From Candidatus Sulfotelmatobacter sp. (lineage in GTDB: Bacteria; Acidobacteriota; Terriglobia; Terriglobales; Acidobacteriaceae): a stretch of DNA of 38,233 nucleotides. A program made the position numbers and the translations under genes. The notes under the pieces are model-generated. The model was not told the origin of the DNA, ran no database searches, and saw only the letters and a list, made by a program, of their open reading frames with translations. Positions 2,048 through 29,103 of the stretch are shown piece by piece. Location: the NCBI GenBank assembly GCA_030041415.1, contig JASHNX010000069.1:1-38233 (forward strand), written 5' to 3'. The stretch's first letter is position 1. Each line of letters starts with the position of its first letter.

Positions 2048-4392
2048 CGCGAGGCTGCTGCTTTGGCAGACTTGTGCTGGATCACTCGATTAACTTCGGC
2101 AATGAGCTGCTGACGCCACGAGCTGCCCTTCTGAAAGAGCGCTTGCGTATGTTCGCTAAGCAGTGAAATTTCCTGCTCGCTCAAGGTCTTTGCGGTCACA
2201 ACGAAGATCGGCAGCTCCTTGAGATTCTCCTGCTGCCGGATATGACGGATGACTTCGAAGCCGTCCATCCCCGGCATCAGCAGGTCGATGACGAGCCCGC
2301 GGACAACGCTGGAGGATAATATCTCCAGCGCATTCGCACCGCTATCCACGCAGTGAACGTCGTATCCCTCCGAATCCAGGGTCTCAGCCATGAGGTCTAG
2401 AGTGCGCCTGTCGTCGTCTACAACCAAGAGCAATGGGCGTATGTTTCTTTCAGCTTGAACATGTTTGCGGATACAGTCGAGCAACACCTGCCTGCCGATC
2501 GGCTTGACGAGATATTCATTCGCACCCACGGCGAACCCTACTTCGCGCTGATCCACAACTGAGAGGATGATCACGGGAATGTTGGCAGTGACCGGCGATT
2601 TTCTAAGCGCGACCATGGTCTCGAGTCCGTTGCCTTTTGCCATCAGGACGTCGAGCGTAATGGCGTCGGGGCGAAGATCGTGGGCCTTTTGCAAGGCTTC
2701 AACGCCCGACTCGGCCATCGCCACGCGATACTCCGATCCCAGATAACTAGCGAGAAGCTCTCTCGCCGGCAACTCATCGTCCACGATCAGAATCAGAGGC
2801 TTATCGTGCTGCTGTTCCTCCGTACGAAAGACTGAATCGGCTGGTTTCAGGCGTTCGCCGATCGGCTTCAGAAGTACACCCGATCCACTGGGCAGAGTAA
2901 AACTGAAACAACTGCCCTTGCCCACTTCGCTTGTCAATGAGATGCTGCCTCCCTGCTGTTCCACGAGGCGCTTGGTGATCGCGAGTCCCAGTCCCGTGCC
3001 TTCCTGCATTTCGCCAGAGTTTTCGGCTTGCCGGAATTCCTCGAACACGATCCCGTGATCCTCCGGCCGGATGCCGACACCGGTATCTGAAACCGAGATG
3101 CGGACAAAATCCTCTTCCTGCCGGCAGTCGATGGTGACTCGCCCCTGTTTGGGCGTAAATTTCACCGCATTGCTTAGAAGGTTGTAGAGGATTTGCTTGA
3201 ATCGCACGCGGTCGGCATGAATTGAGACGTCGTCTTCGAGGTTCTGCTCGACATTGATTCCCTTCGCCATGGCCAGCGGACGGACAGTAGACAAAACTTC
3301 AGGCAAAGCATCCTTGATCTGGAAATTTTCCGGATGGATCTCGATCTGACCGGCCTCAATCTTGGATAGATCGAGGATGTCGTTAATCAATTGCAGCAAG
3401 TGGTGAGCCCCATTGCGCACGTGACCGACAAAGCGCCCCTGCTTGTCGGTGAGCGATCCTACTGTCTGCTCGGCGAGAAGATCGGAGAAGCCGATGATGG
3501 CATTTAATGGGGTCCGCAACTCATGGCTCATGTTGGCCAGAAACTGGCTCTTCAATTTCGTGGCGCGTTCCACTTCCCGGTTCTTGAGTTCCAGTTCCTT
3601 GTTGGTAGCCGCCAGTTGGGTGGTGCGCTCGAGGACGCGTGCTTCCAGCTCATCGCGCCCTTTTTGCAGCGCCGCGTCTCTCTCCTGGATTTGCGCCAGC
3701 ATTTCGTTGAATGCATCGATCAAAGTCGACACTTCATCCTGACTTCCGGTTGGGGCGGCTCGAATCGAGTAGTTTCTTTCTTGGGAAACGGTACGAGCGG
3801 TCTCAGCGAGTCGCATGACCGGCTGCGAGATAACTCGTTGCGATATTCGGGAAACTACCAGGGCGAAAACGAGGGAAAGCAGCAGCACGACGATCGAGAT
3901 AAATGCATAGCTTTTGAGTCGTTCGTGAATAATGACGCGGAGATCCGCGCGCAGGTAAACGAAGCCCGTCAGCCGCTGCTGAAAGACAATGGCATGGAGC
4001 ACGGCAACCTGCTGGCCATCAAACCAATCGGTTTGATCGTGGCCCTGTGGAAGAGCCGGCAGAGGCAAAGCCTGTTCATCGCGATCGCGCCAGTAATCCG
4101 CGAAAGGCTTGCCGTCCGGCGTGTAGACCCCTGCATACAGGACGTTTGGAGAGGCTTTAAGCGCCGATAGAGTGTTTTCCGCAGATCGGGCGTCATTGAA
4201 CAGCAGCGCAGAAACCGAATTTGAGCCGACAATATCGGCCCCAGTCGACAGAGTGCGGGCTATGCTCAGGCGGAAGCTGTAGAGGTCGTAGGCGAAAAAC
4301 GCCGCGCAGGCGAGCATCAATGCAGCGCCGCTCACGAGCATATTCATCCACGTGAGCTTCAGCGAGATCGAATAGTGTCGAAGATTAAGCAT
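2044..4392 (-). CDS. CHASE8-type hybrid sensor histidine kinase with two receiver domains
   Basis: A 782-residue membrane kinase. The order is TM1 (about 15-36), a periplasmic segment of about 130 residues resembling CHASE8 (phrases such as SALLFNDARSAENTLSAL and GVYTPDGKPFADY), TM2 (about 162-182), HAMP (about 183-240), coiled coil (about 240-285), HisKA with phospho-acceptor H290 in MSHELRTPLN, and HATPase with N-box NLLSNAVKFTP, DTGVGI and GTGLGLAI. Two REC domains follow: the first with D539/D581/K630, the second with D659/D660/D703 and K755. CHASE8 is the sensor of YfiN-type diguanylate cyclases that YfiR controls, and a YfiR-like gene sits six bases upstream. This kinase is therefore plausibly the inner-membrane partner of that protein. 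It is co-transcribed with the receptor, the YfiR-like gene and the single receiver. Confidence 0.93.
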   Translation of the reverse strand: MLNLRHYSISLKLTWMNMLVSGAALMLACAAFFAYDLYSFRLSIARTLSTGADIVGSNSVSALLFNDARSAENTLSALKASPNVLYAGVYTPDGKPFADYWRDRDEQALPLPALPQGHDQTDWFDGQQVAVLHAIVFQQRLTGFVYLRADLRVIIHERLKSYAFISIVVLLLSLVFALVVSRISQRVISQPVMRLAETARTVSQERNYSIRAAPTGSQDEVSTLIDAFNEMLAQIQERDAALQKGRDELEARVLERTTQLAATNKELELKNREVERATKLKSQFLANMSHELRTPLNAIIGFSDLLAEQTVGSLTDKQGRFVGHVRNGAHHLLQLINDILDLSKIEAGQIEIHPENFQIKDALPEVLSTVRPLAMAKGINVEQNLEDDVSIHADRVRFKQILYNLLSNAVKFTPKQGRVTIDCRQEEDFVRISVSDTGVGIRPEDHGIVFEEFRQAENSGEMQEGTGLGLAITKRLVEQQGGSISLTSEVGKGSCFSFTLPSGSGVLLKPIGERLKPADSVFRTEEQQHDKPLILIVDDELPARELLASYLGSEYRVAMAESGVEALQKAHDLRPDAITLDVLMAKGNGLETMVALRKSPVTANIPVIILSVVDQREVGFAVGANEYLVKPIGRQVLLDCIRKHVQAERNIRPLLLVVDDDRRTLDLMAETLDSEGYDVHCVDSGANALEILSSSVVRGLVIDLLMPGMDGFEVIRHIRQQENLKELPIFVVTAKTLSEQEISLLSEHTQALFQKGSSWRQQLIAEVNRVIQHKSAKAAASR

Positions 4393-4398
4393 TCAGGT

Positions 4399-4989
4399 TC
4401 AATCTCTCCTCGCAGCGTTTCCTCTGACTGTGGTCGCGACCTTGAGGAGTTCTGAGCTGAGAGTCAGCCCGGCTTGCTGCGCAGCGTCAAGGTTGACCTC
4501 GAACCGGACGCGGCTCTCTTCCGTGACGAATTCGATCATGCCGCCATGTCGCGAAAACTCGGGTATGTCGCTGACCGTCAATACGGCTTCCTTGTCCAAA
4601 GCTTCCATGATCTTTCTCAGTCGATTCGCCTCAGTGGAACCGAGAAAGAGAATGCGGCAATGGGCAGATACATCCAGACTCGAGATCCGCTTGGCGGTTA
4701 CGGGTTTTCCGCCAATCGCAGCGCCGGCAAGCGCGGCATCGAGAGCCGAGCCAAAGGGGTCCTGACCAAGAATGCAAACGGTGAAGTCGGTGTCTTTGTC
4801 GGAAACGCTGGCCGGCCATTGAACAAACTTGCCGAAGTTATACAGATAGATTGCCTTTACCTGGTAATCAGTGGGCTTCTGTTGTCCATACAGGGAAAGA
4901 GCAAAAACGGCGAATGGGATCAAGAGCAGGAATGTATGAACGCACAGCGAACGCAGAGCGCACGGCCAAAGTCTTCTCTCGGAAAACAT
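4399..4989 (-). CDS. YfiR-like periplasmic protein (DUF4154 family)
   Basis: A secreted protein of about 196 residues. It starts with a basic N-terminus and long hydrophobic signal (LFLL-type, LLLIPFAVFALSLYG) and is followed by the YfiR hallmarks YQVKAIYLYNFGKFVQWP, VCILGQDPFG and EFSRHGGMIEFV. In Pseudomonas, YfiR is a periplasmic inhibitor of the CHASE8 diguanylate cyclase YfiN. Here the following gene encodes a CHASE8 histidine kinase, so an analogous inhibitor/sensor role is inferred. The ATG at 4989 is preferred because it gives a normal signal peptide. The frame stays open to a TTG at 5019, but no Shine-Dalgarno sequence precedes that TTG. It lies between the TonB-dependent receptor and the kinase on the same strand with short gaps. 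Confidence 0.88.
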   Translation of the reverse strand: MFSERRLWPCALRSLCVHTFLLLIPFAVFALSLYGQQKPTDYQVKAIYLYNFGKFVQWPASVSDKDTDFTVCILGQDPFGSALDAALAGAAIGGKPVTAKRISSLDVSAHCRILFLGSTEANRLRKIMEALDKEAVLTVSDIPEFSRHGGMIEFVTEESRVRFEVNLDAAQQAGLTLSSELLKVATTVRGNAARRD

Positions 4990-5107: not shown

Positions 5108-7168
5108 TCATTTTTCGCTGCTGCGCCACACTAGATTCGCGTAAACACTGCGCTTCACTTCGACCGGCCCGTCCGGATCGCCTCCGAACTGGGCAAAATG
5201 CGGCTGCAACAGATTGCGACCGTTTACGGAAAATTCCATTTGTTTCGTAATATGCCAGCCGACTCTGGCATCCATCGTCTGGTAGCTTGCGACCGATTGC
5301 GCCGGCAAGGCGCTTACATAGCGGTAAGTCTGATCAAACTCCAACTTTCTTGGGAGATTTACCAGGGACTGAACTACGAACTGATTCCGCGGACTAGACC
5401 CTTCATAGCCGGCAACGCTGGTTGGATCGTTGCTTGTTGGCTTATTTTCCAGTTCCATCTCCAGATGCGAGTAGCCTGGCCTGAACTGCCACCAACTCAG
5501 CGGCTTCCAGTCGGGCATGATTTCGAAGCCTTTTGTGTTGCCGCGGATTCCGTTGCTCGTCAGCAGGGGAAGTACGGCATGCGCTGGCGCGGGAGAAGTT
5601 TCGAGGAAAGGCGCTTCTACCTGAAAACTGTAGAGATCGTTGTAGTCGTTAAAAAACGCTGCGAGATCAATATAGAAGTGAGACCTTATTAAAGTCCGGT
5701 AGCCGGCTTCGTAAGCGATCAATTCTTCGGAATGAAATTGATGGTTGCCGTAAACACGCAAGTAAATCGGCAAGCCTGATTGAATTCCCGCGAAGTCTGT
5801 AAGTTCGACGTCTTCATCGATCCGGGATGGGGCCCGCACGGCGCGTGTGACCGCACCCCAGAATGACTGCTGCGGTGTAGGTGTCCACAACAATCGTCCG
5901 CTGGGCTGCACTTCAAAACCGGTGTAGTTATTGTGTTCCAACTTTGATCCCAGCGTGAAAAAAAGCCGCCGGTCGAGCACAGGGATCATATCTTGCGCGA
6001 ACCCGCTATAAACCTGGTCAGTCAGCTTGTATGGAAGAAATGCAATAGTCGGGACGGTCTGTATGTCATTTGCCGGGCTGATCCGAATTCCGAGTCCCCA
6101 GAGGAAGTCTTGCTGCCGCGGAAGTGTCAGATGGTGAAGGAAATCAACGTCGAAAGTGTCGCGAGTCTCGCCGAATTCCGGCTCGAAGTGGTTGGTGCGG
6201 TCAAAATAGGCCTGAATCTGGAAGTCGGACCCCGCGTTGATCGTCCGTTTCCAGCGAGCCAACAAATTGCCACCCGTGAACTGCCCGTCGCCGTAGACGT
6301 AAACCTGCGACGGCGTCGAGTAGAGAGCGTACTGACTCGCCTCGCCTGCGATCTCACGATAGATGTCGCCCTGGAACGTGAAAGCATCGCGAGCGCCTTG
6401 TTCCCAATCAGTGCGGAATCCGGCTTGCCCCATTCGCCAATCGTCGAAGTTAGGACCCTCGGGATGAAAATCGGGACCGCGCGTGAATCCCATTCCGTAC
6501 ACGCGATAGTTGAAGCCGCGGTCGTTGCCGCCTCCGTAGCGGGCTGTGCCGAGCCCTTGATCAACGTCGCCGCCACCTGTCGAGACGAGGGTGCCGTGCG
6601 TATTTCGGGCGCTCTTGGTGATGATGTTGATGATGCCGTCGACGGCGTTGGCGCCCCAGATCGTCCCGCCGGGGCCGCGAATCACTTCAATCCGCTCGAT
6701 GTCTTCAATCGGTGTGTTCTGGACCTGCCAGTAAACGCCGGCGAACAGCGGCGTGTAGACACTTCGCCCGTCGATCAAGACCAGGAGTTTGCTTGCCAGC
6801 ACCGCACCAAAGCCGCGAATCGATACCGACCAGTGATCGGAATCCACCTGCGCCACTTCAACCCCGGGAACCAACCGCAACGCTTCCGGTATGCTGGTTG
6901 CCCCTGAACGCCGAATGTCTTCCTGCGTCAGGACAAATACAGCCGCCGGAGTCTTCCAAACCTCTTCTGGTTCTTTGGTGACGGTTGTGACCTCGACTTT
7001 GCCGAGATCTGAAAGGCTCATCTGGCGAAGAGCATCGGCCTCGTCTTGATTGTTTGCTGGATCAGCCAGACTTTCACTGACTAATGCGACAACTAACAAC
7101 GCGACAACGAAAAGCTGTTGCACAACCGAAATGGCTTTGCGTATGGAATGACTGGATAGAAATTGCAT
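5108..7168 (-). CDS. TonB-dependent outer-membrane receptor
   Basis: A 686-residue outer-membrane receptor. It has a signal peptide (about 1-35), a TonB-box-like stretch LGKVEVTTVTK (about 55-65), a plug domain (about 70-190, with TPAAVFVLTQEDIRRSGATSIPEALRLVPGV and the IEVIRGPGGTIWGANAVDGIINIITK signature), then a 22-strand-type barrel to the C-terminus. The substrate cannot be read from sequence. It heads a minus-strand run with the YfiR-like, hybrid kinase and receiver genes, so it may be both an importer and an upstream signal input. The 5' leader carries a near-identical direct repeat (7203-7217 and 7282-7297). AAGGTG sits about ten bases before the ATG. Confidence 0.93.
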   Translation of the reverse strand: MQFLSSHSIRKAISVVQQLFVVALLVVALVSESLADPANNQDEADALRQMSLSDLGKVEVTTVTKEPEEVWKTPAAVFVLTQEDIRRSGATSIPEALRLVPGVEVAQVDSDHWSVSIRGFGAVLASKLLVLIDGRSVYTPLFAGVYWQVQNTPIEDIERIEVIRGPGGTIWGANAVDGIINIITKSARNTHGTLVSTGGGDVDQGLGTARYGGGNDRGFNYRVYGMGFTRGPDFHPEGPNFDDWRMGQAGFRTDWEQGARDAFTFQGDIYREIAGEASQYALYSTPSQVYVYGDGQFTGGNLLARWKRTINAGSDFQIQAYFDRTNHFEPEFGETRDTFDVDFLHHLTLPRQQDFLWGLGIRISPANDIQTVPTIAFLPYKLTDQVYSGFAQDMIPVLDRRLFFTLGSKLEHNNYTGFEVQPSGRLLWTPTPQQSFWGAVTRAVRAPSRIDEDVELTDFAGIQSGLPIYLRVYGNHQFHSEELIAYEAGYRTLIRSHFYIDLAAFFNDYNDLYSFQVEAPFLETSPAPAHAVLPLLTSNGIRGNTKGFEIMPDWKPLSWWQFRPGYSHLEMELENKPTSNDPTSVAGYEGSSPRNQFVVQSLVNLPRKLEFDQTYRYVSALPAQSVASYQTMDARVGWHITKQMEFSVNGRNLLQPHFAQFGGDPDGPVEVKRSVYANLVWRSSEK

Positions 7169-19150: not shown

Positions 19151-20095
19151 CTACGGGTTGAAATAGGGATCGTTCGCCATGCGGCTGAACGACGCCTCCG
19201 ATGCAGGAGACGAGTTGATCCGCCAATCGGCTTCCTTGTTGATGTCGAACCACACAAGACCCTTGATGAGTGGAAAGTTTGTGCGCAGGGTGGGAACGAT
19301 CTCGTCGATCCACTTGCCCTTATCTCCCCCGGCTTCGGCAGAAGCCATCTCTCCAATCAGGATCGGTTTCTTCTTTTCTGCCAGAAGCGGGTAGATGTCT
19401 TCGAATACCTGTTGGAAGGTCTGCCAGCCACCGTTCTTCGTGCCCCAATTGTAGCCATCGACTCCTGTCCAATCGACATACGAATCGCCGGGATAGTAGT
19501 CCATGGTAGTACGGTTGCCTCCCTGGGTATCTGTGACGTTTGGACACCACGCCCAAACCACATTGGTGGCACCGGCAGCAATGAAGAGGTCGTGAATGTG
19601 CCGATAAGCGGAAACGTACAGGGGAGCGTTATTGCCGCTCCATGCTTCGTCACCATTCATCTCGGCGGCAAAGTCGAGGAAGAACTTCTTGCCGAGCGCT
19701 TTGGAGCCGCTGGCACGCGCGCTAATCGTCGCATCGAGGCTGCCGTCGATGATCTTAGCAAAGTCGATATTGTGGGGCTCCCAATTGACCAGAGGGATAC
19801 GTCCCGCCGCCAAATCTGCCTTGGTGACTGTACCGGTCCAATCAGCGTCCCACGCGTAGTACGTCAGGTGAATGGGAGGTGTCCGGCCGAGTCTCGCTGC
19901 CGTCTGGGTCATGTTCCCCGCGCCGTAGTAGAGTCCGAGCAACGCACCGGATGCGGGCTCGAGAATGGATGGTTCACTCGGCCCCGACTTGCCGGATGTC
20001 TGCGCGAGACATGCGCCCGCGAGGCCGGCCAGCAATGAGTAAATCAGAAAAATTCGCACAACTGGCCGAGCGGCTATGCAAAGAATCTTTCTCAA
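19151..20095 (-). CDS. Secreted GH26-like glycoside hydrolase (beta-mannanase type)
   Basis: A 314-residue secreted hydrolase. It has a signal peptide (about 1-31, ending GACLAQ) and a GH-A TIM-barrel core with the GH26 acid/base context FAAEMNGD (E145) and nucleophile context ILIGEMAS (E249). Supporting phrases are GLYYGAG, VNWEPHNID and VVWAWCPN. It would cleave beta-mannan or a related beta-glycan. The start is TTG at 20095: it is supported by AAGGAG eight bases upstream and by the intact signal peptide, and no ATG fits. It follows the SelA-like gene by 76 bases on the same strand, so the two are probably an operon. The substrate call is an inference from the family. Confidence 0.85.
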   Translation of the reverse strand: MRKILCIAARPVVRIFLIYSLLAGLAGACLAQTSGKSGPSEPSILEPASGALLGLYYGAGNMTQTAARLGRTPPIHLTYYAWDADWTGTVTKADLAAGRIPLVNWEPHNIDFAKIIDGSLDATISARASGSKALGKKFFLDFAAEMNGDEAWSGNNAPLYVSAYRHIHDLFIAAGATNVVWAWCPNVTDTQGGNRTTMDYYPGDSYVDWTGVDGYNWGTKNGGWQTFQQVFEDIYPLLAEKKKPILIGEMASAEAGGDKGKWIDEIVPTLRTNFPLIKGLVWFDINKEADWRINSSPASEASFSRMANDPYFNP

Positions 20096-20171: not shown

Positions 20172-21440
20172 TCAGCTGGTTGCCGCCTTCGCCAGGACGT
20201 CTCGAAGACGGAGCCCTACGATTGAGTCCTCGCCGGGTTCCAGCATCCACACTCCAACCACGATCTTATTGGGATCTTTCGGTATCCCCGCACTTCCCTC
20301 CGTTGAACCGGTCGCCGGATTTAATTCGATACTGGGCGTGCCGCTACGCAATTGTCTTGCGACTTCGAGAGGCGAGATTTTGACGCGCTCCTGGTCATAG
20401 CGGATCAGCAGGTGTGGAACGTGATTGGCGATAGGAGGGATAAATGTCTCGGATTTTAAAGTTGGAATATTCTTGAGCGCTCCGGTAATCCGATCGATGC
20501 GCCGCCGAAACTCAGCGTCCATCTCCGCATCGGACTGGCTTAGGAACCAATCAACCGCCGCCACCATGCCGACGATTTGCTCTTTGGCGACTTTCATTCC
20601 GCGGCCCACGGTGTCATCGTTGGGGCTGTTGTTCGCGGCGGCGGCAGCGATAAGGTCCTTCCTGCCCAGGAGCAGGCCCGCGTTTTGTGGACCTCTCATC
20701 CCTTTCCCGCCGGAGAAGGCAACCAGATCGAATCCCATTTGGGTATAGTTCCAGAGATTCGAGATGGGCGGAACGTCGGCAGCAGCGTCATTCAAGCAGG
20801 GAACTCCATGGGCGTGTGCGATCCGAATCCAGTCTTCCCGGCTGATGTTTCCTTCGTCGGCAGCATTGTAGAAAAAACACATGGCAGTATTTTTGTTAAT
20901 CGCTGCCTCATACTCCGGCAAGGTTTCCACCTCCACGAAACGAATACCGCAGCTCCGTAATGCGTGGTCGTAATCGTATCGGTGTGCTTTTTGAACGACC
21001 ACCTCACTCTTGAGGCCCACCATGTCGGTAGGGATCGCATGACCGGCGGAATCGCTGCCCACTGTTATGCACGCCGCCGTGGCCAGAGTGACTGCAGAAG
21101 CTGCGCCCGCGGTAACCATCGCCGCTTCGCAATGCAGTTGCCGGGCGAGGTATTCTCCAGCCGCTCTTTGCAAAGGAGCCAGTCGCACTGGATGTTTTGC
21201 GGCCCGTGCAACGGCTGCCTGCACCGAAGGCGGCATCGTGGACGCAGTTAAATGGGTATAGGTGCCGGCGGCATTAATAATTTTTGTAACGCCGAGCTTG
21301 TCATAGTAGTCCTCACCTTCATCGGCAAGCTTGGGTGTCGTAGCAGCCGCTCGAAATGGCAAAGTGTGAGCAAGCGTGCATCCGGCCAATGCTCTGTAGA
21401 TGTGCTCAAAAAAATTTCGTCGTGTGCCTAGGATGCTCAT
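20172..21440 (-). CDS. SelA-like PLP-dependent enzyme with Tat-type N-terminus
   Basis: A 422-residue fold-type I PLP enzyme of the SelA/D-glucosaminate-6-phosphate ammonia-lyase group. Typical motifs are TKIINAAGTYTHL (about 52-64), VTAGAASAVTLATAACI (109-125), LNDAAADVPP with the likely PLP-binding Asp (D218/D222), and GGKGMRGPQNAGLLLGR with the Schiff-base lysine K246. The reaction is probably elimination or transfer on an amino-sugar or amino-acid derivative, not selenocysteinyl-tRNA synthesis. Unusually, it begins with TRRNFF and a weakly hydrophobic stretch ending at about residue 33, suggesting Tat export of a folded cofactor-loaded enzyme. It is upstream of the GH26-like gene in the same operon. 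Its promoter region carries the element shared with the receptor gene at 23251. Confidence 0.83.
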   Translation of the reverse strand: MSILGTRRNFFEHIYRALAGCTLAHTLPFRAAATTPKLADEGEDYYDKLGVTKIINAAGTYTHLTASTMPPSVQAAVARAAKHPVRLAPLQRAAGEYLARQLHCEAAMVTAGAASAVTLATAACITVGSDSAGHAIPTDMVGLKSEVVVQKAHRYDYDHALRSCGIRFVEVETLPEYEAAINKNTAMCFFYNAADEGNISREDWIRIAHAHGVPCLNDAAADVPPISNLWNYTQMGFDLVAFSGGKGMRGPQNAGLLLGRKDLIAAAAANNSPNDDTVGRGMKVAKEQIVGMVAAVDWFLSQSDAEMDAEFRRRIDRITGALKNIPTLKSETFIPPIANHVPHLLIRYDQERVKISPLEVARQLRSGTPSIELNPATGSTEGSAGIPKDPNKIVVGVWMLEPGEDSIVGLRLRDVLAKAATS

Positions 21441-21555
21441 CTCGTCTTGACCTCAGAATATATATTTCACGACAAGCTGCATTTGCCCGCTTGTGGAATT
21501 TGCATTTCACACCCCGACGACATTTTGTCGCAGTAAAACATGCCATGAAACGGGA

Positions 21556-21602
21556 GTGAAGTGCCTAACAGTTGTGCGGAGGACTGTATCCCGATACAGT
21601 CC
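21556..21602 (-). promoter_or_regulatory. Shared operator-like element, copy 1 (SelA-like/GH26 operon)
   Basis: On the minus strand the 17-mer GTATCGGGATACAGTCC (21597-21581) is followed after 18 bases by ACTTCAC (21562-21556). The same arrangement with identical spacing precedes the receptor gene at 23251. Here the 17-mer is part of a palindrome with ten-base arms GGACTGTATC/GATACAGTCC around two bases. It ends about 115-140 bases before the SelA-like start. Confidence 0.65.
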
Positions 21603-21693
21603 GAAGATAACCGACTGATGCTGATTGTCTTGTCGGTCGGCGATCCAGCGGATTCAAAAAGAGGGTCAACCCAAACTCGCAACCGAAGTTCGA

Positions 21694-22941
21694 TTACCAG
21701 TAGTAAGAGGCGACGACCTCTGGAGATGCCGGAGAATTTGCAATCACCCTGACGTGTATCACAAACTGAAGATTCTTTTTTTGCCAGCCCTTGGGAGCAG
21801 ACTGCAGAATTTTAGCCAGCAGACCGGCATTGGTGATTAACTCCGCCGCCGCCTGGGTCCCGTATTGCTCGCACCCGCTGACCAGCATCATCATTTCATT
21901 TGTCTCGGGATAAAACGCACGCGAGATGATTGCGTAATCGTCATCGCTATGAAAATCCGCGCTGACATTATGTGGATACCACTCGGTGGGCTTTCCGTTG
22001 TCCGTGATTATGCCGTTCTCATCATCAATAAAGAAGCGGAAGTTTTTTGTGATCTCTTTCCACTGATTGCTTGAATATCCGATCAAAATCGCAGGAGCGT
22101 TGTGCAAGTCCTCGAAAGAAACAGCATTTCCGATCTTTACCGTGAAAGGATGCCCCCTGCGGCCCAGGAGTCCGGAAATCCAGGAAGCCGCCACGAGATC
22201 TCCTCCTCCGACGTACTGGTCAGTCAACAAAGTGAAATCCTTTACGGATGGGGGCCGAGTGGGCATGTAAACTTGCCCGTAGGCCGCCGCCAAAACTACC
22301 GGAGATTGGCTTTGTAACAGTGGCGCCCAAAATTGATCGAGCATCGTAGAAGAAGACCGAAACTCGAACCAGAACCCAGTGCAGAGGGCAATAACACTCA
22401 AGGGCGCGAAAATCGTCGCCCATATTCGCCAACGTGCCTTTCTCCGATGCGTCTCCTGATTTTTCGATTCTCCTGCGACATCTTCGGTGGTCAGATTCCC
22501 AGCAGAAAGAGCCGCACTTGTTTCATGCGCGTGGGCTGAGCGTTTGCAAAAGGTTGGAACATAACTGCCGACGGGCAATTCAATATGCACCGCCGCATTT
22601 TTTCCTCCTTCAGCATGGTAAAGCGCAAGCCTCTTTCGAACCTCACTCGCCTTCATCCGGACTATTCCGTCTTCGTTGGTGTCGTACGTATTCGACCGTC
22701 CAAAGACAGCTATGCCGATCGTGCGTTCCTTCAGGCCGTGCGGCAGGCCAGCGAGCGTTTGTTCCACAACGTATTCAAGGAAATCCTGGCAGCGCTTGCT
22801 CCCGTGGAATTGGGGACTTTGGAAGACGCGGCCGAGCTCGACGCGAATCGCATCTGCCTCGATATCCGATATCGAGTGAGTCTTTTCCTTGGTTTCTCCG
22901 ATTAAATCGACGGTGGCCGAGGCCTGGGTGTCCTCTGACAT
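21694..22941 (-). CDS. Membrane-anchored one-component regulator (ToxR/CadC-like topology)
   Basis: A 415-residue protein. The cytoplasmic N-terminus (about 30-130: VELGRVFQSPQF, RCQDFLEYVVEQTLAG, LKERTIGIAVFGR, DGIVRMKASEVRKRLALYH, IELPVGSYVPTF) resembles the putative DNA-binding domain of many Acidobacteriota proteins often labelled 'adenylate cyclase'. A single TM helix (about 172-193) follows a basic stretch HRRKARWR. Residues 200-415 form an extracytoplasmic domain I do not recognise. No cyclase catalytic domain is present. The likely role is to sense a periplasmic ligand and bind DNA directly. It sits between the SelA-like/GH26 operon and the divergent receptor gene, and copy 2 of the shared element is about 90 bases upstream of its own start. 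Confidence 0.75.
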   Translation of the reverse strand: MSEDTQASATVDLIGETKEKTHSISDIEADAIRVELGRVFQSPQFHGSKRCQDFLEYVVEQTLAGLPHGLKERTIGIAVFGRSNTYDTNEDGIVRMKASEVRKRLALYHAEGGKNAAVHIELPVGSYVPTFCKRSAHAHETSAALSAGNLTTEDVAGESKNQETHRRKARWRIWATIFAPLSVIALCTGFWFEFRSSSTMLDQFWAPLLQSQSPVVLAAAYGQVYMPTRPPSVKDFTLLTDQYVGGGDLVAASWISGLLGRRGHPFTVKIGNAVSFEDLHNAPAILIGYSSNQWKEITKNFRFFIDDENGIITDNGKPTEWYPHNVSADFHSDDDYAIISRAFYPETNEMMMLVSGCEQYGTQAAAELITNAGLLAKILQSAPKGWQKKNLQFVIHVRVIANSPASPEVVASYYW

Positions 22942-23250
22942 GGGGCAAAAATACCGGCGGCGATGTTAGCACAGTTTTATCCAGTCGGTTAGCGCTATTT
23001 CGCTGAAAATGGAAATGTTGTCCGCATATCGTATCGGGATACAGTCCCGGGCGAAACGGTTCGCTACTTCACAACGCGGATCAGGATGTGCTCCCCTTCT
23101 CAGCACAGTAGGGATCGCCATCGACCATGGTGCCGCAATCCTCTTTTGTTCAATTCCATTGGGCATGTATTTGGCCTGCATCCTGGTGGGTGGCGCGGGT
23201 TGGGCAATACCAGGGAGGAAACCGAGCCGTGGTGAACTAAGGAGGCTGCG
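22942..23250. other. 309-bp divergent control region
   Basis: It lies between the divergent regulator and receptor genes. It contains copy 2 of the shared 17-N18-7 element (23031-23072) and a CAGTCGGTTA (22982-22991) whose complement TAACCGACTG also recurs next to copy 1 (21608-21617). No gene is supported here. A strong ribosome site AAGGAGG precedes the receptor ATG. Confidence 0.65.
23031..23072 (+). promoter_or_regulatory. Shared operator-like element, copy 2 (receptor/hydrolase operon)
   Basis: GTATCGGGATACAGTCC (23031-23047), an 18-base spacer of which about half the positions match copy 1, then ACTTCAC (23066-23072). It reads toward the receptor gene just as copy 1 reads toward the SelA-like gene. 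The core GTATC/GATAC inverted repeat suits a dimeric DNA-binding protein. It ends about 180 bases before the receptor start and lies upstream of the regulator gene as well. Confidence 0.65.
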
Positions 23251-26200
23251 ATGAAACTACTGATCTGCTTGCGGATTGGAGTGCGAGTTCTCCTTGGGTT
23301 GGGTCTGGCAGCGAGTCTCCTGGCTCAGGTGGCCGGACGAGGCTCGTTGAGTGGGTTGGTGACGGATAGCTCCGGGGCGGCCATCGCGGGCGCCGCGGTG
23401 AAGCTCACCAACATCGATACCGGCGTTGTTGTGTCAGGACGGACGTCGGCCGGCGGATTGTATTCATTTCTCAGCCTAGTCCCGGGTAACTACCAGCTCA
23501 AGGTCGAACAGTCCGGCTTCAAAACATCGGTCCAAAACAAGATCACAGTTGCCGTGGATGCGGAGCAGCGGGTGAACATGTCGCTGCAGGTAGGTGGCGT
23601 AAGCCAAGAAGTAACCGTTTCGGCCGCGCCGGATATCGTCGCCACAACCAGCAGCACCACCGGGCAACTCATCCCCTCCGAGGTCATCGAGCGCACTCCC
23701 CTACTCACCCGCGACATATTTGGGCTGGTTCAGCTTGTTCCCGGCGTCATCCCCCAGGATGGCAATCCCACGTCGCTTGATTCGCAGCGGAATGAAGTTT
23801 CGAACTTCACCATCAATGGAGCGCCGCAGGGCACGGTCTACTACACGCTGGACGGCAGCCCACTGACCATTGGAGAAAACAATCAGGGCGTCGTCATTCC
23901 AGCTATGGAACCTCCGCTGGATTCAGTAGAGGAATTCGAGATGGAGACGAACGTCACTCCAGCGAGCATTCAGACCGGTGCGGCCGGAGTCATCAGTCTC
24001 GTCAGCAAGAGCGGCACCAATAACTTTCATGGCGACGTTTTCGGCTTTGCGCGGCCCAATGTTCTGGTCTCCAACGATTATTTTGACAGAGCAGCCGGGC
24101 AGCCCGTTCCGGACTTCCATCGTTATCAGTGGGGTGGCTCTTTCGGTGGCCCGATCAAGAGGAACAAAGTTTTTTTCTTCGGGGACTACGAGGGCACACA
24201 GCAGGCCAGCATAGCCACAACCACGCTCACGGTACCCACGGCTGCGGAAAAGCTCGGCGACTTCTCCGGCGATCCCGGACTTACCATCTACAATCCAGAC
24301 CCCTCGACTTGGGCTGCCGGCCCGACGCCCTGCATCGCTCCGGCCACCATCTGCCCGCAGCCGTTTCCCGGAAATAAGATCCCAAAGGGAATGATTAACC
24401 CGATTGCCGCTAAATATCTTCAGTACTGGCCAGCGCCCAACTTTCCCACCAGCGGGACCTACCACCCGCTCAACTTCTTTGCTTCCGGCTCTAGTCCTCT
24501 GGCCGTCGAAAGATTCGATGTCCGTCTGGACGACAACTTGAAATCGAACCAGCATCTCTTTGGGCGGGTTTCTGTGGCGCGTGAACACGATAGCACCCCG
24601 AACTATTTCAACAATCTGTTCTACCCCGCTAGCCTGAATTTCAACCATGACGGCAACTTAATGTTGGGCTATGACCGAACCATCTCATCGAACACCGTTC
24701 TCCAGTTGCGCGGCTCCGCAACTCGACATTATGAGAACGACGGACCGCAAGCCCAGGCCGGTTTCAATCAGACTACGCTCGGTTTCCCATCCTCGTTAGA
24801 AGCATCTTCGACCTATCCATCCATTCCATACATGTACCTCACTGGAAACGGAAATGACGCCCCAGCATCACTGGGCAGCCCCACCTTCTCCTTTTTCACG
24901 TTCGCCACCACCAACTACGACTTCAGCGCCACACTTAACACCGTGAAGGGGCGGCACCAACTGAGCCTGGGATGGGACTTTCAAATGTTTTATATGAATG
25001 TTGGCCAGACTCTCGACCCAGCTGGCGCCTACCAATTTGCTCCCGACGCCACCAGTTCGAGCGTTCCCGCCGCCGATGGTGATGCCTTTGCATCATTTCT
25101 CCTTGGTATCGGCTCGCTAGACCAGGGGCAGCCTAACTGGACGACCGATGTATTCGGCGCCAACAGCAATCGTTACGACGCACTCTTTATTCAGGACGGC
25201 TGGCACGCGACAGACAAGCTGACGATTAATGCCGGCTTGCGATGGGATCTGTTCCTCGGAGCGACCGAACGCTACAACCGCATGGAGTACTTCGACCCCA
25301 CGCTCGAGTACAAGGTGAACGGAGTTAACCTGACTGGCGGCGAAGTGTTCTCCAACAGTGCACACCGCAGCCCATTTCTTCCAAACTGGCGCGACTTCGC
25401 TCCCCGTTTCCTTCTGACTTACCAATTCTTGAAAAATGCCGTCGTGCGCGGCGGCTTCGGGATTTCCTACGGGCCTAGCGTGCACATGGCTGAAATCAAT
25501 CAGTTCAACGACGACTCGTATCTGGCTGAGACAACCTGGCTGGCATCCACGCTGGATCCCACGGGAAACTACCTGATTCCAGGTAATTCGCTTTCGAATC
25601 CGTTTCCGAGCGGCATCGTAAAGCCAACGGACGGGAGTCTCGGCGCCGCTACAAACGTGGGCCTCGGCGTGAACAGCTTATTGCATTCCCAACCGGAGCT
25701 GACGACGTACAACTTCAACTTCGGAGTGCAATACCAATTTCGCAATCAGGTGATCCTGTCCGTCGCTTGGGTCGGCAGTCGCGGGCTGCACTTGCCCTTC
25801 AGCAACCAGGGAAACACCGACCTCAACTCGCTTTCTCTGGGCACGATCGCGCAGTATCAGGGCAATCTGCTGAACATGGTCCCGTACCCCTACGCTGCTG
25901 CGATTACGAACCCTGACGCGCCGTGGCTTGGCGCGACGCAAGTACCGAAGTGGGTGATGCTCGAGAAATTCCCGCAGTTCTCCTATGGCCCGAGTCCCAA
26001 CAGTGTTGGCGCAGGAAGTGGAGTTCTGGAGTGGGGTGTCCCCTGGGGAGATTCCATCTATCATTCGCTGCAAGCGAAACTCGAGAAGCGGCTGACTCAG
26101 CACTTCACCACGCTCCTCTCGTTCACCTGGGGCAAACTGATCACCGACGACAATGCCGGTTCGCTCGCGTTTAACGGTAACAACTTCGCCCAGGCACAGG

Positions 26201-26814
26201 ACATCACCAATCTGAATCTGGAGCGGAACGTCAGCACCCAAGACATTCCTTTCTATTTTTCCGGGTTGCTGTCCTACGATCTGCCCGTCGGCGAAGGACG
26301 TGCAGTCAATCTGCGGGGCTGGGCCAATGGGGCCCTCGGCGGGTGGACGGTGACGGCCGTTGTCGCTCTTAGTGACGGGCAGCCGATCGCCACTCCCAAC
26401 GGCACGGGCGACATTTGGTTCAATCAACGCCCCGATATCATTGGCAACTGCGGTAAGGGCGCGCCCAGGATCGTTGCGGAATGGTTCAATTACACCTGCA
26501 TGGCGCAGCCGCCAAGCCAATACCTGCCGGGGACCGCCCCATCCATACTGCCCGGCATCCGCGCCGACGGCGCACACGATCTGGATCTTTCGATCACTAA
26601 ACATTTCAAGATAGGCGAGCACAAGGATCTCGAGTTCCGAGCCGCCGCTTACAATTTCACGAACTCAATTCAGTTCGGGTATCCGAATATTCTCTGGGTT
26701 CCGCCAACGTCCGGCACACAGCCTACTGCCGCTCAGATGCAGGGCTTCGGCCAAATCACGAACCAGGCAAATACCCCGCGTCAATTTAGTTTCGAGGCGC
26801 GGTTCAAGTTCTAG
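23251..26814 (+). CDS. Oar-like TonB-dependent receptor with carboxypeptidase-regulatory-like domain
   Basis: A 1187-residue outer-membrane protein of the large Acidobacteriota Oar/SusC-like class. It has a signal peptide (about 1-26), a carboxypeptidase-regulatory-like beta-sandwich (about 30-115: GSLSGLVTDSSGAAIAGAAVKLTNIDTG, GLYSFLSLVPGNYQLKVEQSGF), a plug-like region (about 120-260, with TRDIFGLVQLVPGV), then a long barrel ending in an aromatic FEARFKF. These proteins are thought to import or bind oligosaccharides and other large substrates. AAGGAGG with good spacing supports the ATG. The next gene starts 30 bases after the stop, and the upstream element is shared with the SelA-like/GH26 operon, which points to a glycan-derived substrate. 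The substrate itself is unknown. Confidence 0.93.
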   Translation: MKLLICLRIGVRVLLGLGLAASLLAQVAGRGSLSGLVTDSSGAAIAGAAVKLTNIDTGVVVSGRTSAGGLYSFLSLVPGNYQLKVEQSGFKTSVQNKITVAVDAEQRVNMSLQVGGVSQEVTVSAAPDIVATTSSTTGQLIPSEVIERTPLLTRDIFGLVQLVPGVIPQDGNPTSLDSQRNEVSNFTINGAPQGTVYYTLDGSPLTIGENNQGVVIPAMEPPLDSVEEFEMETNVTPASIQTGAAGVISLVSKSGTNNFHGDVFGFARPNVLVSNDYFDRAAGQPVPDFHRYQWGGSFGGPIKRNKVFFFGDYEGTQQASIATTTLTVPTAAEKLGDFSGDPGLTIYNPDPSTWAAGPTPCIAPATICPQPFPGNKIPKGMINPIAAKYLQYWPAPNFPTSGTYHPLNFFASGSSPLAVERFDVRLDDNLKSNQHLFGRVSVAREHDSTPNYFNNLFYPASLNFNHDGNLMLGYDRTISSNTVLQLRGSATRHYENDGPQAQAGFNQTTLGFPSSLEASSTYPSIPYMYLTGNGNDAPASLGSPTFSFFTFATTNYDFSATLNTVKGRHQLSLGWDFQMFYMNVGQTLDPAGAYQFAPDATSSSVPAADGDAFASFLLGIGSLDQGQPNWTTDVFGANSNRYDALFIQDGWHATDKLTINAGLRWDLFLGATERYNRMEYFDPTLEYKVNGVNLTGGEVFSNSAHRSPFLPNWRDFAPRFLLTYQFLKNAVVRGGFGISYGPSVHMAEINQFNDDSYLAETTWLASTLDPTGNYLIPGNSLSNPFPSGIVKPTDGSLGAATNVGLGVNSLLHSQPELTTYNFNFGVQYQFRNQVILSVAWVGSRGLHLPFSNQGNTDLNSLSLGTIAQYQGNLLNMVPYPYAAAITNPDAPWLGATQVPKWVMLEKFPQFSYGPSPNSVGAGSGVLEWGVPWGDSIYHSLQAKLEKRLTQHFTTLLSFTWGKLITDDNAGSLAFNGNNFAQAQDITNLNLERNVSTQDIPFYFSGLLSYDLPVGEGRAVNLRGWANGALGGWTVTAVVALSDGQPIATPNGTGDIWFNQRPDIIGNCGKGAPRIVAEWFNYTCMAQPPSQYLPGTAPSILPGIRADGAHDLDLSITKHFKIGEHKDLEFRAAAYNFTNSIQFGYPNILWVPPTSGTQPTAAQMQGFGQITNQANTPRQFSFEARFKF

Positions 26815-26844: not shown

Positions 26845-29103
26845 ATGGCTACTTCACGGCGTACTTTCTTGGGGACAACTATCGGCGCTGCTGCGTTAAC
26901 GGCCGTTCGCCCTCTGGCTGATGCAGTCGTTCCGTCAGCTCAAAATGCAACTTCGTCCGCGGCCGATGCCGCGGTAGTCCGGGTGCACGCAGCGCCGAAC
27001 CAGGTCGTGAACTCCTTTGATCCCGATCAGGCTTTCGCGACATCGATGGACATTCAATCGCGCGAATCGATCGATAAGATCTACACGCCGGAAAGCGTAA
27101 AAGTTTGCCTGTCTGCGGGCTGGGGGCCGATCAGCTACCGCCTGCATACTCCTGAGACCATCGATTATTGGCACTGGAATCCCAACGGCCGATGGACGGA
27201 TGAAGCAAAGAAATGCGGATATTTCGTCGGCAGCTCGGAACTGGCCGAACCGATTCGCGATTCATTTGGCTTCAGTCTCCCCCATCGTGGCTGCACCCAC
27301 AATGGCGGCACCGAGAGCGGCTATTCCCGCCTGACGGATGGTGATCCTAAAACCTTTTGGAAGAGTAACCCTTATTTGACTAAAGCATTCACCCATGAAG
27401 ACGACTCCCTACATCCGCAATGGATCATCGTCGACCTGGGCGAATACTACGACGTGAACGCGATCCGCATCGACTGGTGCGAACCATGCGCCAGTGAGTA
27501 CGAAGTCCAGTATTGGGTGGGAGCCGATCCCATGAACTGGGAAGAACCAGCCATGGATTCTACGGGCCAGGGCGGCGAGTATCTTCCTGTTGCCAATCAA
27601 GCGATGGGCAATTGGTTCCGTTTCCCCAAAGGTACTGTTCACGATGGCAAAGGTGGAAGCGCAACGCTGAAACTGGCGGACAATCTCATCTCAACCCGTT
27701 GGCTTCGCGTCGTGATGACGCGTTCGTCCAATCAACCCGGCCCGCATGGAAACGATGACGTTCGGCATCGAGTGGGCTACGCGATCTATGAAGTTTACGT
27801 TGGTCGACTGCAGGGGGATGGCAAGTTCGCGGATTTTGTGAAACACGCACCCGACGGCCGCAAACAGACCGCTACGTATTGCTCTTCGACCGATCCATGG
27901 CACACCGCGGAAGACCTGAGTCCCTATGGAGACCAGACCGGCTGGGATCTTTTCTTCACCAGCGGCATCACGAACGGCCTACCTGCACTCATAACCGTTC
28001 CTCTGATTTACAGCGTTCCCGAAGATGCTGCGGCTATGGTCGATTATCTGAAAAAGCGTGGCTATCCCATCAGCTGGGTCGAAATGGATGAAGAAGCCGA
28101 CGGGCAGTACTACATGCCGGAGGACTACGCTGCACTTTATATTCAGTTTGCGGACGCGATGCTCAAAGTCGATCCCACGCTCAAGGGTAAGTTGGGTGGG
28201 CCAGTGTTCCAGGGTATTAACCAGGACGTCTCGGTATGGCCCGATGCGCGAGGAGACAAGTCCTGGTTTGGCCGCTTTTACGATTATCTGAAATCGCACA
28301 ATCGTCAGGCGGACCTGTCATTCGCCTCATTTGAAATCTATCCCTACGAAGCCTGCACCATGAAGTGGGACGATTTGTACCGTAACCGCGAACTCACGCG
28401 TAAAACTCTGCAGGCCTTTCGCGATGACGGATTGCCAGCGTCGATTCCGCTCATGAACACCGAAAGCAATCTCTGCGGTTCGCTTTCGATCTACATGTCC
28501 GACATTTTCTCGGCTCTGTGGCTGGCCGATAATGTTGGCAGCTTTTTTGCCGAAGGCGGCGCGCTTTACGTTCATTCGCCCATCGAACCGAGCGGTATCG
28601 AGCATGGCTGCCAGGGCTGGGCAATTTGGGGAAATGCGCTTTGGGACCGCGATGCAAAGATCATTGGCTATACTGCCTTCTACTATGCCAGTCAGATGAT
28701 CAATAACGAGTGGGTCACGCATCGCAGCGGCACTCATCATCTGCACACTGTCGATGTCGGAATCGTAGACCCCGCCGGAAATGCTCTGGTCACAAGCTAT
28801 GCTGTCAGGCGCCCGGACGGCCAATGGGCTCTGCTGCTTATCAACAAAGATAGAGATCATGCGCACTCCGTTCGAATCGCCTTTGACGGCGCGGGCGGCG
28901 CAGGATATTTTGCAGGAACCGTTCGGACGGTCACGTTTGGCAGCGAACAATACGTTTGGCACGGCGAGAATGCCTCAGCCCACGCCGATCCTAACTTGCC
29001 GCCTGTAATTGCGTCCGTTGATGCCTCCGCGCAAACTGTGTTCGTGCTCCCCAACGCTTCGATCACCGTTTTGCGCGGCGAAGTCCAAGGCCTTGCGGCC
29101 TAG
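26845..29103 (+). CDS. Tat-exported discoidin-domain glycoside hydrolase-like protein
   Basis: A 752-residue exported protein. It has a Tat signal (SRRTFLG, residues 4-10, then an Ala-rich hydrophobic stretch), a discoidin/F5-8C-like carbohydrate-binding module (about 140-320: GYSRLTDGDPKTFWKSNPYL, WIIVDLGEYYDVNAIRIDW, TRWLRVVMTRSS), and a TIM-barrel-like region (about 365-640). The phrase EMDEEADGQY matches the EIGNEPD-type acid/base site of GH-A families (probably E417), and LMNTESNLCG offers a nucleophile (E540). A C-terminal beta-sandwich (about 655-750) follows. It resembles GH39/GH79-type enzymes but I cannot fix the family. It is 30 bases after the receptor gene, in an operon with it. 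Confidence 0.78.
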   Translation: MATSRRTFLGTTIGAAALTAVRPLADAVVPSAQNATSSAADAAVVRVHAAPNQVVNSFDPDQAFATSMDIQSRESIDKIYTPESVKVCLSAGWGPISYRLHTPETIDYWHWNPNGRWTDEAKKCGYFVGSSELAEPIRDSFGFSLPHRGCTHNGGTESGYSRLTDGDPKTFWKSNPYLTKAFTHEDDSLHPQWIIVDLGEYYDVNAIRIDWCEPCASEYEVQYWVGADPMNWEEPAMDSTGQGGEYLPVANQAMGNWFRFPKGTVHDGKGGSATLKLADNLISTRWLRVVMTRSSNQPGPHGNDDVRHRVGYAIYEVYVGRLQGDGKFADFVKHAPDGRKQTATYCSSTDPWHTAEDLSPYGDQTGWDLFFTSGITNGLPALITVPLIYSVPEDAAAMVDYLKKRGYPISWVEMDEEADGQYYMPEDYAALYIQFADAMLKVDPTLKGKLGGPVFQGINQDVSVWPDARGDKSWFGRFYDYLKSHNRQADLSFASFEIYPYEACTMKWDDLYRNRELTRKTLQAFRDDGLPASIPLMNTESNLCGSLSIYMSDIFSALWLADNVGSFFAEGGALYVHSPIEPSGIEHGCQGWAIWGNALWDRDAKIIGYTAFYYASQMINNEWVTHRSGTHHLHTVDVGIVDPAGNALVTSYAVRRPDGQWALLLINKDRDHAHSVRIAFDGAGGAGYFAGTVRTVTFGSEQYVWHGENASAHADPNLPPVIASVDASAQTVFVLPNASITVLRGEVQGLAA

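Follow-up and report, generated by a model that had tools for sequence, protein, structure and literature searches.

PhoB/OmpR-type operators are direct repeats near -35, and in Bacteroidota SusR/HTCS regulators control polysaccharide loci. The locus described here comes from Candidatus Sulfotelmatobacter, a genus of Acidobacteriota, and lies in a 38,233-nucleotide stretch of DNA, called the window below. Its regulator gene sits beside a TonB receptor and glycoside hydrolases, as membrane sensor-regulator genes do in SusR/HTCS systems, but no two-component domains were found in the protein, which comes from a different phylum. It resembles ToxR/CadC-type regulators in having a DNA-binding-like N-terminal domain, one hydrophobic segment and a large C-terminal part that would be outside the cytoplasm, and in being encoded next to its probable targets. 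However, the N-terminal domain is not recognisable as PF00486 by Pfam or profile comparison, and because no OmpR-type domain was found by sequence we do not file the regulator under ToxR/CadC. In homologues of 54-57% identity, half-sites repeat at 10-12 bp and adjoin a TTGAC-like box, much as in PhoB/OmpR-type operators, whereas each window copy pairs a palindrome with one AACNGTT unit at a distance of 21.5 bp and has no short-spaced tandem.

A published census of transmembrane regulators, built on Pfam models of DNA-binding domains, counted somewhat more of these proteins in Acidobacteriae than in other groups (PMC10269533). Since the present family has no Pfam match, that census would probably have missed it. 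Our literature search, which included PMC3174227 and had subscription papers mostly outside its reach, gave no description of the family or its operator among the matches listed.

The locus and its regulator

An earlier note on this DNA had described a shared element upstream of the two transcription units that flank the regulator gene. In window coordinates, the features are as follows.

19151..20095, minus strand: GH26-like glycoside hydrolase, from domain search
20172..21440, minus strand: SelA/DgaE-like PLP enzyme, below NCBIfam cut-offs
21532..21537, minus strand: possible -10 box TTTACT of the SelA-like unit, one base nearer than the TATAAg of the VRVTAAE subclass (below); absent from the promoter scan
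21556..21597, minus strand: element copy 1 (17-N18-7), with the SelA-like ORF 116 bp downstream; kept in the orthologous loci L039 (spacer 19) and L040 (one core base changed)
21554..21575, minus strand: downstream unit of copy 1, ACAACTGTTAGGCACTTCACTC, with the 11-mer GTTAGGCACTT; rank 9 with the Thr-class matrix (below)
21581..21602, minus strand: upstream unit of copy 1, palindrome GGACTGTATC-GG-GATACAGTCC, centred 21.5 bp upstream of the AACTGTT centre
21608..21617, minus strand: left decamer, CAGTCGGTTA on this strand, a possible extra half-site
21694..22941, minus strand: regulator, 415 aa, hydrophobic segment at about residues 173-194, no Pfam or NCBIfam match
22537..22869, minus strand: conserved N-terminal domain of the regulator (residues 25-135), with the putative recognition helix VRMKASEVRKRL and Lys97
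22982..22991, plus strand: right decamer CAGTCGGTTA, a possible site for the regulator's own promoter
23031..23072, plus strand: element copy 2 (17-N18-7), preceding the receptor ORF; exact match, conserved
23031..23047, plus strand: upstream unit of copy 2, core GTATC-GG-GATAC with the right arm only; 5/7 pairs at -21.5
23053..23074, plus strand: downstream unit of copy 2, GAAACGGTTCGCTACTTCACAA, with the 11-mer AACGGTTCGCT; GGTTAGC in both orthologues; matrix rank 179
23251..26814, plus strand: TonB receptor (PF25183, 591 bits) with a carboxypeptidase-regulatory domain
26845..29103, plus strand: secreted-looking protein with an F5/8 type C domain, called a hydrolase in the earlier note

The regulator is probably anchored in the membrane, as predicted from hydropathy only, which peaks at 1.73 (19-residue mean) at residues 173-191. 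Its conserved N-terminal domain, which has a predicted helix around VRMKASEVRKRL followed by IELPVGSYVPTF, is inferred to bind DNA. No Pfam or NCBIfam model, two-component domains included, matched the protein; Pfam gave no shared match among 58 family members, and no PDB sequence gave a profile match to the domain. When the domain was aligned by hhalign with nine PF00486 (OmpR/PhoB-type) domains of the same genome, the probability was 0.8%, so that, with no Pfam match either, OmpR-type membership is unsupported by sequence profile. AlphaFold2, run on three close sequences, gave poor models (mean pLDDT 33.7 for the whole protein and 58.3 for the domain), and a PDB fold search with that poor domain model returned no match at E <= 0.001 and is given no weight here.

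The protein is the sole family member found in the window's genome at E <= 1e-3, and a sample of 300 genomes from the taxonomic family gave matches in 221 (E <= 1e-5). Copy number seems to vary widely, from one in the window's genome (G000) to 39 first-look, unconfirmed candidates in another (G201). Among the neighbouring proteins, twin-arginine-like N-termini were noticed by eye on the SelA-like enzyme (TRRNFF), the F5/8 type C protein (SRRTFLG) and a GH2 enzyme in a relative's locus, L225 (4502-7042; SRRQFLLG); they suggest export of folded proteins, which would be unusual for a SelA-like PLP enzyme.

The element pair and its conservation

The pair is present where the earlier note had placed it: GTATCGGGATACAGTCC-N18-ACTTCAC matches exactly at 21556-21597 (minus) and 23031-23072 (plus), a recount of the ungapped alignment gives the same 33 identities in 42 positions, and 100 dinucleotide shuffles contained no 17-N18-7 match. 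The palindrome claimed for copy 1 is also real, with ten-base arms at 21581-21602; copy 2 has ATATC where copy 1 has GGACT, and therefore keeps only the core GTATC-GG-GATAC and the right arm. A shared decamer, TAACCGACTG, likewise occurs on both sides as described, at 21608-21617 (plus) and 22982-22991 (minus), against 0.05 occurrences expected. In the element's own direction the decamer reads CAGTCGGTTA; it precedes the 17-mer by 10 bases on the left and 39 on the right, and may be a further CGGTTA half-site. The units also depart from the note's blocks, being more likely the palindrome and AACNGTTAG..ACTTCAC, with centres 21.5 bp apart.

The genome (4.81 Mb in 350 contigs) has no exact copy of the 17-mer besides the two at this locus, which rules out a dispersed genomic repeat, the high-copy case that the note had held up against its own reading. 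Allowing up to three mismatches gave eight matches and none in the reversed control. Besides the two exact copies, these were five sites with three mismatches and the copy-1 palindrome read in reverse (two mismatches). A search of the genome for further targets with SNGTTASSNACTTCAC at up to two mismatches gave 149 matches versus 221 in the reversed control, and so did not single out any site other than the two copies.

A scan of named genomes found regulators 88% identical to the window's in L039 and L040, both from Candidatus Sulfotelmatobacter MAGs. Both loci keep the two copies inside well-conserved blocks of both intergenic regions, where the blocks are conserved better than the flanking sequence, and the neighbouring receptor is kept too; the lack of conservation at orthologous loci that the note had also named against itself was thus not found. 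The left copy has a spacer of 19 versus 18 bases in L039 and one changed core base in L040, and the right unit reads GGTTAGC in both orthologues and GGTTCGC in the window. Genes were called by a longest-ORF rule, which placed the L039 left copy inside a spurious ORF. Also in L039, at about 4304-4418, the SelA-like gene is nearly all gone, with some 37 C-terminal codons left before GH26 and the left element intact.

In a survey of the genus, a regulator at least 88% identical is present in 3 of 45 genomes (the window's own, G314 and G317). Each of these three contains the core twice (at most one mismatch), and the pair occurs in none of the other 42; the only other genome with a core match at this cut-off, G312, has it inside a reading frame. 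Judged by their shared coordinates, the records of G314 and G317 are very probably those of L039 and L040, so the survey and the scan are not separate evidence. The element is intergenic, unique to the locus and kept with the regulator. Alternatively, the copies could bound a mobile cassette that contains the regulator, as its terminal inverted repeats, or stem from a recent functionless duplication, consistent with their inverted placement around one gene and with the patchy occurrence of close orthologues (3 of 45 genus genomes). However, no transposase-like ORF lies between them, copies and receptor are retained together in L039 and L040 with the blocks conserved above their surroundings, and relatives have a motif beside the receptor; we consider this very improbable, the least likely of the alternatives.

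Helix residue 97, putative operator cores and receptors in relatives

The family was compared across 157 loci (99 in a first set and 58 added later), which were best-scoring family matches plus a few further loci and not a random sample. At the position of Lys97 in the window, 83 have Thr (the Thr class), 34 Lys or Arg (the Lys/Arg class) and 40 another residue. This helix residue is linked statistically to the operator core. With similar upstream regions removed, AACNGTT was found upstream of 16/29 Lys/Arg, 4/71 Thr and 0/38 other regulators (reversed controls 5, 8 and 3; inside the gene 1, 6 and 4), and TACSGTA upstream of 0/29, 14/71 and 7/38 (reversed 2, 3 and 0), the residue-97 split and both cores having been chosen after looking at the first-set data. 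A tandem GTTASG (spacing 10-12, at most one mismatch, noncoding) occurred in 10/27 Lys/Arg versus 1/72 other loci of the first set; 60 permuted hexamers reached at most 6 of the 27 Lys/Arg loci. The second set, which served as a later check for this tandem only, gave 4/7 versus 0/51, but its loci L209 and L213 have almost the site of L135 from the first set, so that the counts exceed the number of independent events. At the same cut-off the tandem is absent from the window, L039 and L040, with best matches at two mismatches in the window and three in both orthologues.

Upstream of 74 Thr-class regulators, a motif search returned an approximately 20-bp motif, TACCGNAAGGANCTTG, with a log-likelihood gain of 295.5 versus 73-84 in three shuffled sets, and 49 of its 50 confident sites were directed away from the regulator. 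In cross-validation, with matrices trained on half of the loci and a starting seed taken from all Thr loci, 43 of 71 held-out loci had a site of at least 10 bits, all on the strand leading away from the regulator, against 1/71 reversed controls, 2/71 inside the gene and 9/71 downstream.

This motif follows the receptor. Relative to the regulator, a receptor homologue is divergent in 88 of the 157 loci; in 17 it follows the regulator on the same strand, in 3 it has another position, and in 49 none was found. Among 56 noncoding Thr-class sites of at least 13 bits, not made non-redundant and scored with a matrix trained on upstream regions, all 38 in loci with a divergent receptor lie on the receptor strand. 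Four are in loci with the receptor downstream, three of them on its strand and the fourth being the second copy of L225; the other 14 are in loci without a found receptor. Of the 50 sites that have a gene after them, 38 precede a receptor homologue, at a median distance of 125 bp, and the right unit of the window is 198 bp from the receptor ORF. L225, alone among the Thr-class loci, has strong sites on both strands: two outward-facing copies bracket the regulator, one before the GH2 gene and one before the receptor, an arrangement like that of the window. Such bracketing is uncommon: of 91 loci, 7 had shared noncoding stretches that outdid every one of 30 shuffles, with about 3 expected by chance. 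A second motif upstream of Thr-class regulators (for example in L109 and L208) is the palindrome GGGACGTATSATACGTCCC, which contains TATGAT and is probably part of the regulator's own promoter; GTATCAT occurs in 27/83 and GTATGAT in 29/83 Thr loci (1.3 and 2.4 expected).

The window block AACNGTTAG..ACTTCAC looks like the Lys/Arg-class counterpart of the Thr motif. The window units have 11-mers in common with K-class relatives: among the 157 loci, GTTAGGCACTT occurs only in the window, L040, L041 and L043, and AACGGTTCGCT only in the window, L063 and L067. With the Thr-class matrix, the left unit ranks 9th of 76,424 window positions but scores 8.1 bits, and the right unit ranks 179th with 0.2 bits; as a detector for the Lys/Arg class the matrix fails (4/29 loci versus 2/29 reversed at 8 bits). 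In the 54-57% homologues, GTTACGC/GTTAGGC is repeated three times, at spacings of 12 and 10 bp, up to a CTTTGAC or CTTGAC, and in L011/L043 these repeats lie within a 106-nt, 84% identical repeat upstream of a GDSL-esterase gene and of the receptor, with the regulator between. Over the upstream regions of all 99 first-set regulators, no direct repeats with 10-12 bp periodicity were found (z 1.0-1.9), and a motif search within the Lys/Arg class alone gave only a weak, diffuse motif.

Two of these loci have further repeats. Directly upstream of its first element copy, L011 has a perfect 19-nt inverted repeat with a 6-nt loop (427-470). In L136, an exact 22-nt inverted repeat, GGCTCTTCCGTACATTTGGTGA, surrounds ORFs adjoining the regulator (4234-4414 and 5958-6149 in regulator-plus orientation), perhaps as insertion-sequence ends.

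Unit spacing, promoter boxes and a probable two-unit operator

In both window copies the palindrome is centred 21.5 bp upstream of the AACNGTT centre, with 6/7 pairs in copy 1 and 5/7 in copy 2, the latter tied with another centre at -16. Within a Thr subclass, VRVTAAE, a palindrome of at least 5/7 pairs is centred 21-23 bp upstream in 6/16 sites (control positions: mean 0.8, largest 3). Two loci that look related, L060 and L083, have the core TATCGGGATA with the same 21.5-bp spacing, and account for two of only four occurrences of that core outside the window and its two orthologues, among 154 loci. No clear palindromic upstream unit emerged from the 54 Thr sites taken together, and a direct second copy of the unit at -21/-22 in Thr-class sites was weak (z 2.5-2.6).

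These patterns bear on the strongest rival, in which another protein occupies the palindrome: the regulator would bind only the AACNGTTAG unit, and the palindrome would be the site of an unlinked factor, such as a LexA-like protein or repressor. The palindrome is the best-conserved part of the element and most relatives have the unit without such a palindrome, both of which speak for this explanation; LexA-type boxes read CTGT-N8-ACAG, which copy 1 fits. However, copy 2 reads TCGT-N8-ACAG, leaving the box in copy 1 only, the palindrome occurs at this locus alone in the genome, and two Thr-class loci have a palindrome with the same core and spacing. We regard a second protein as unlikely, if worth keeping in mind.

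VRVTAAE has TATAAg at +39 to +44 relative to the motif; on that basis the two units would sit near -45 and -67, usual activator positions. Nothing resembling a -10 box was seen at the right copy, and an Rfam search of 21400-23300 found no structured RNA at the element; its single match, within the regulator gene, fell below threshold (19.9 bits, gathering 66.2). The promoter scan placed a sigma-70-like site at neither copy, which, together with two blocks at fixed spacing upstream of two units, could indicate that an unusual sigma factor, and not the regulator, recognises the blocks. This is very improbable, though: the element is unique to the locus, the VRVTAAE box is separate from and downstream of the motif, and the core varies with the regulator's helix residue.

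The best and most economical explanation of the pair, with a probability of roughly 0.7, is a two-unit operator of the regulator encoded between the copies, placed at both outward promoters. Each copy would present two units on one face of the DNA, centred 21.5 bp (about two helical turns) apart: upstream a palindrome with the core TATCGGGATA, and downstream AACNGTTAG..ACTTCAC, ending about where a -35 box would be. With the protein anchored in the inner membrane, its N-terminal domain would bind both units, and the C-terminal domain, outside the cytoplasm, would sense a signal that most likely turns the regulator into an activator of the receptor unit and the SelA-like/GH26 unit. Activation appears more likely than repression because of the position of the operator. 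Several observations count against this reading: both units score low with the Thr matrix, in which eight other window positions outscore the left one, the window has no tandem, the palindrome is restricted, the right copy has neither the outer left arm nor a -10 box, the domain fits no OmpR-type profile and two-copy bracketing is rare.

The earlier note had proposed control of both outward units together with autoregulation. The former agrees with the anatomy of the locus, the receptor-directed motif of relatives and L225, while the latter is possible but not established, since the family motif faces away from the regulator and follows the receptor. The only hint of it is the right decamer: on the regulator strand its TAACCG precedes by 23 bp a TAACAT that could be the regulator's -10 box (noticed by eye, then checked). 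Just upstream of the regulator start, TTAGCAC (22966-22972), found upstream of 9/34 Lys/Arg-class regulators with 0.8 expected, is possibly the regulator's -10 region.

More broadly, these loci may represent a large and undescribed family of membrane-anchored regulators with a residue-97 code (Lys/Arg with AACNGTT, Thr with a TACSGTA-like core), each controlling its local TonB-receptor locus through an operator near -35 that travels with the receptor; we are evenly divided on this generalisation. If the two-unit reading of the window holds, it would supply the family with a putative operator, predicted targets and a candidate residue for specificity, and sequence could be used to match acidobacterial uptake loci with their regulators.
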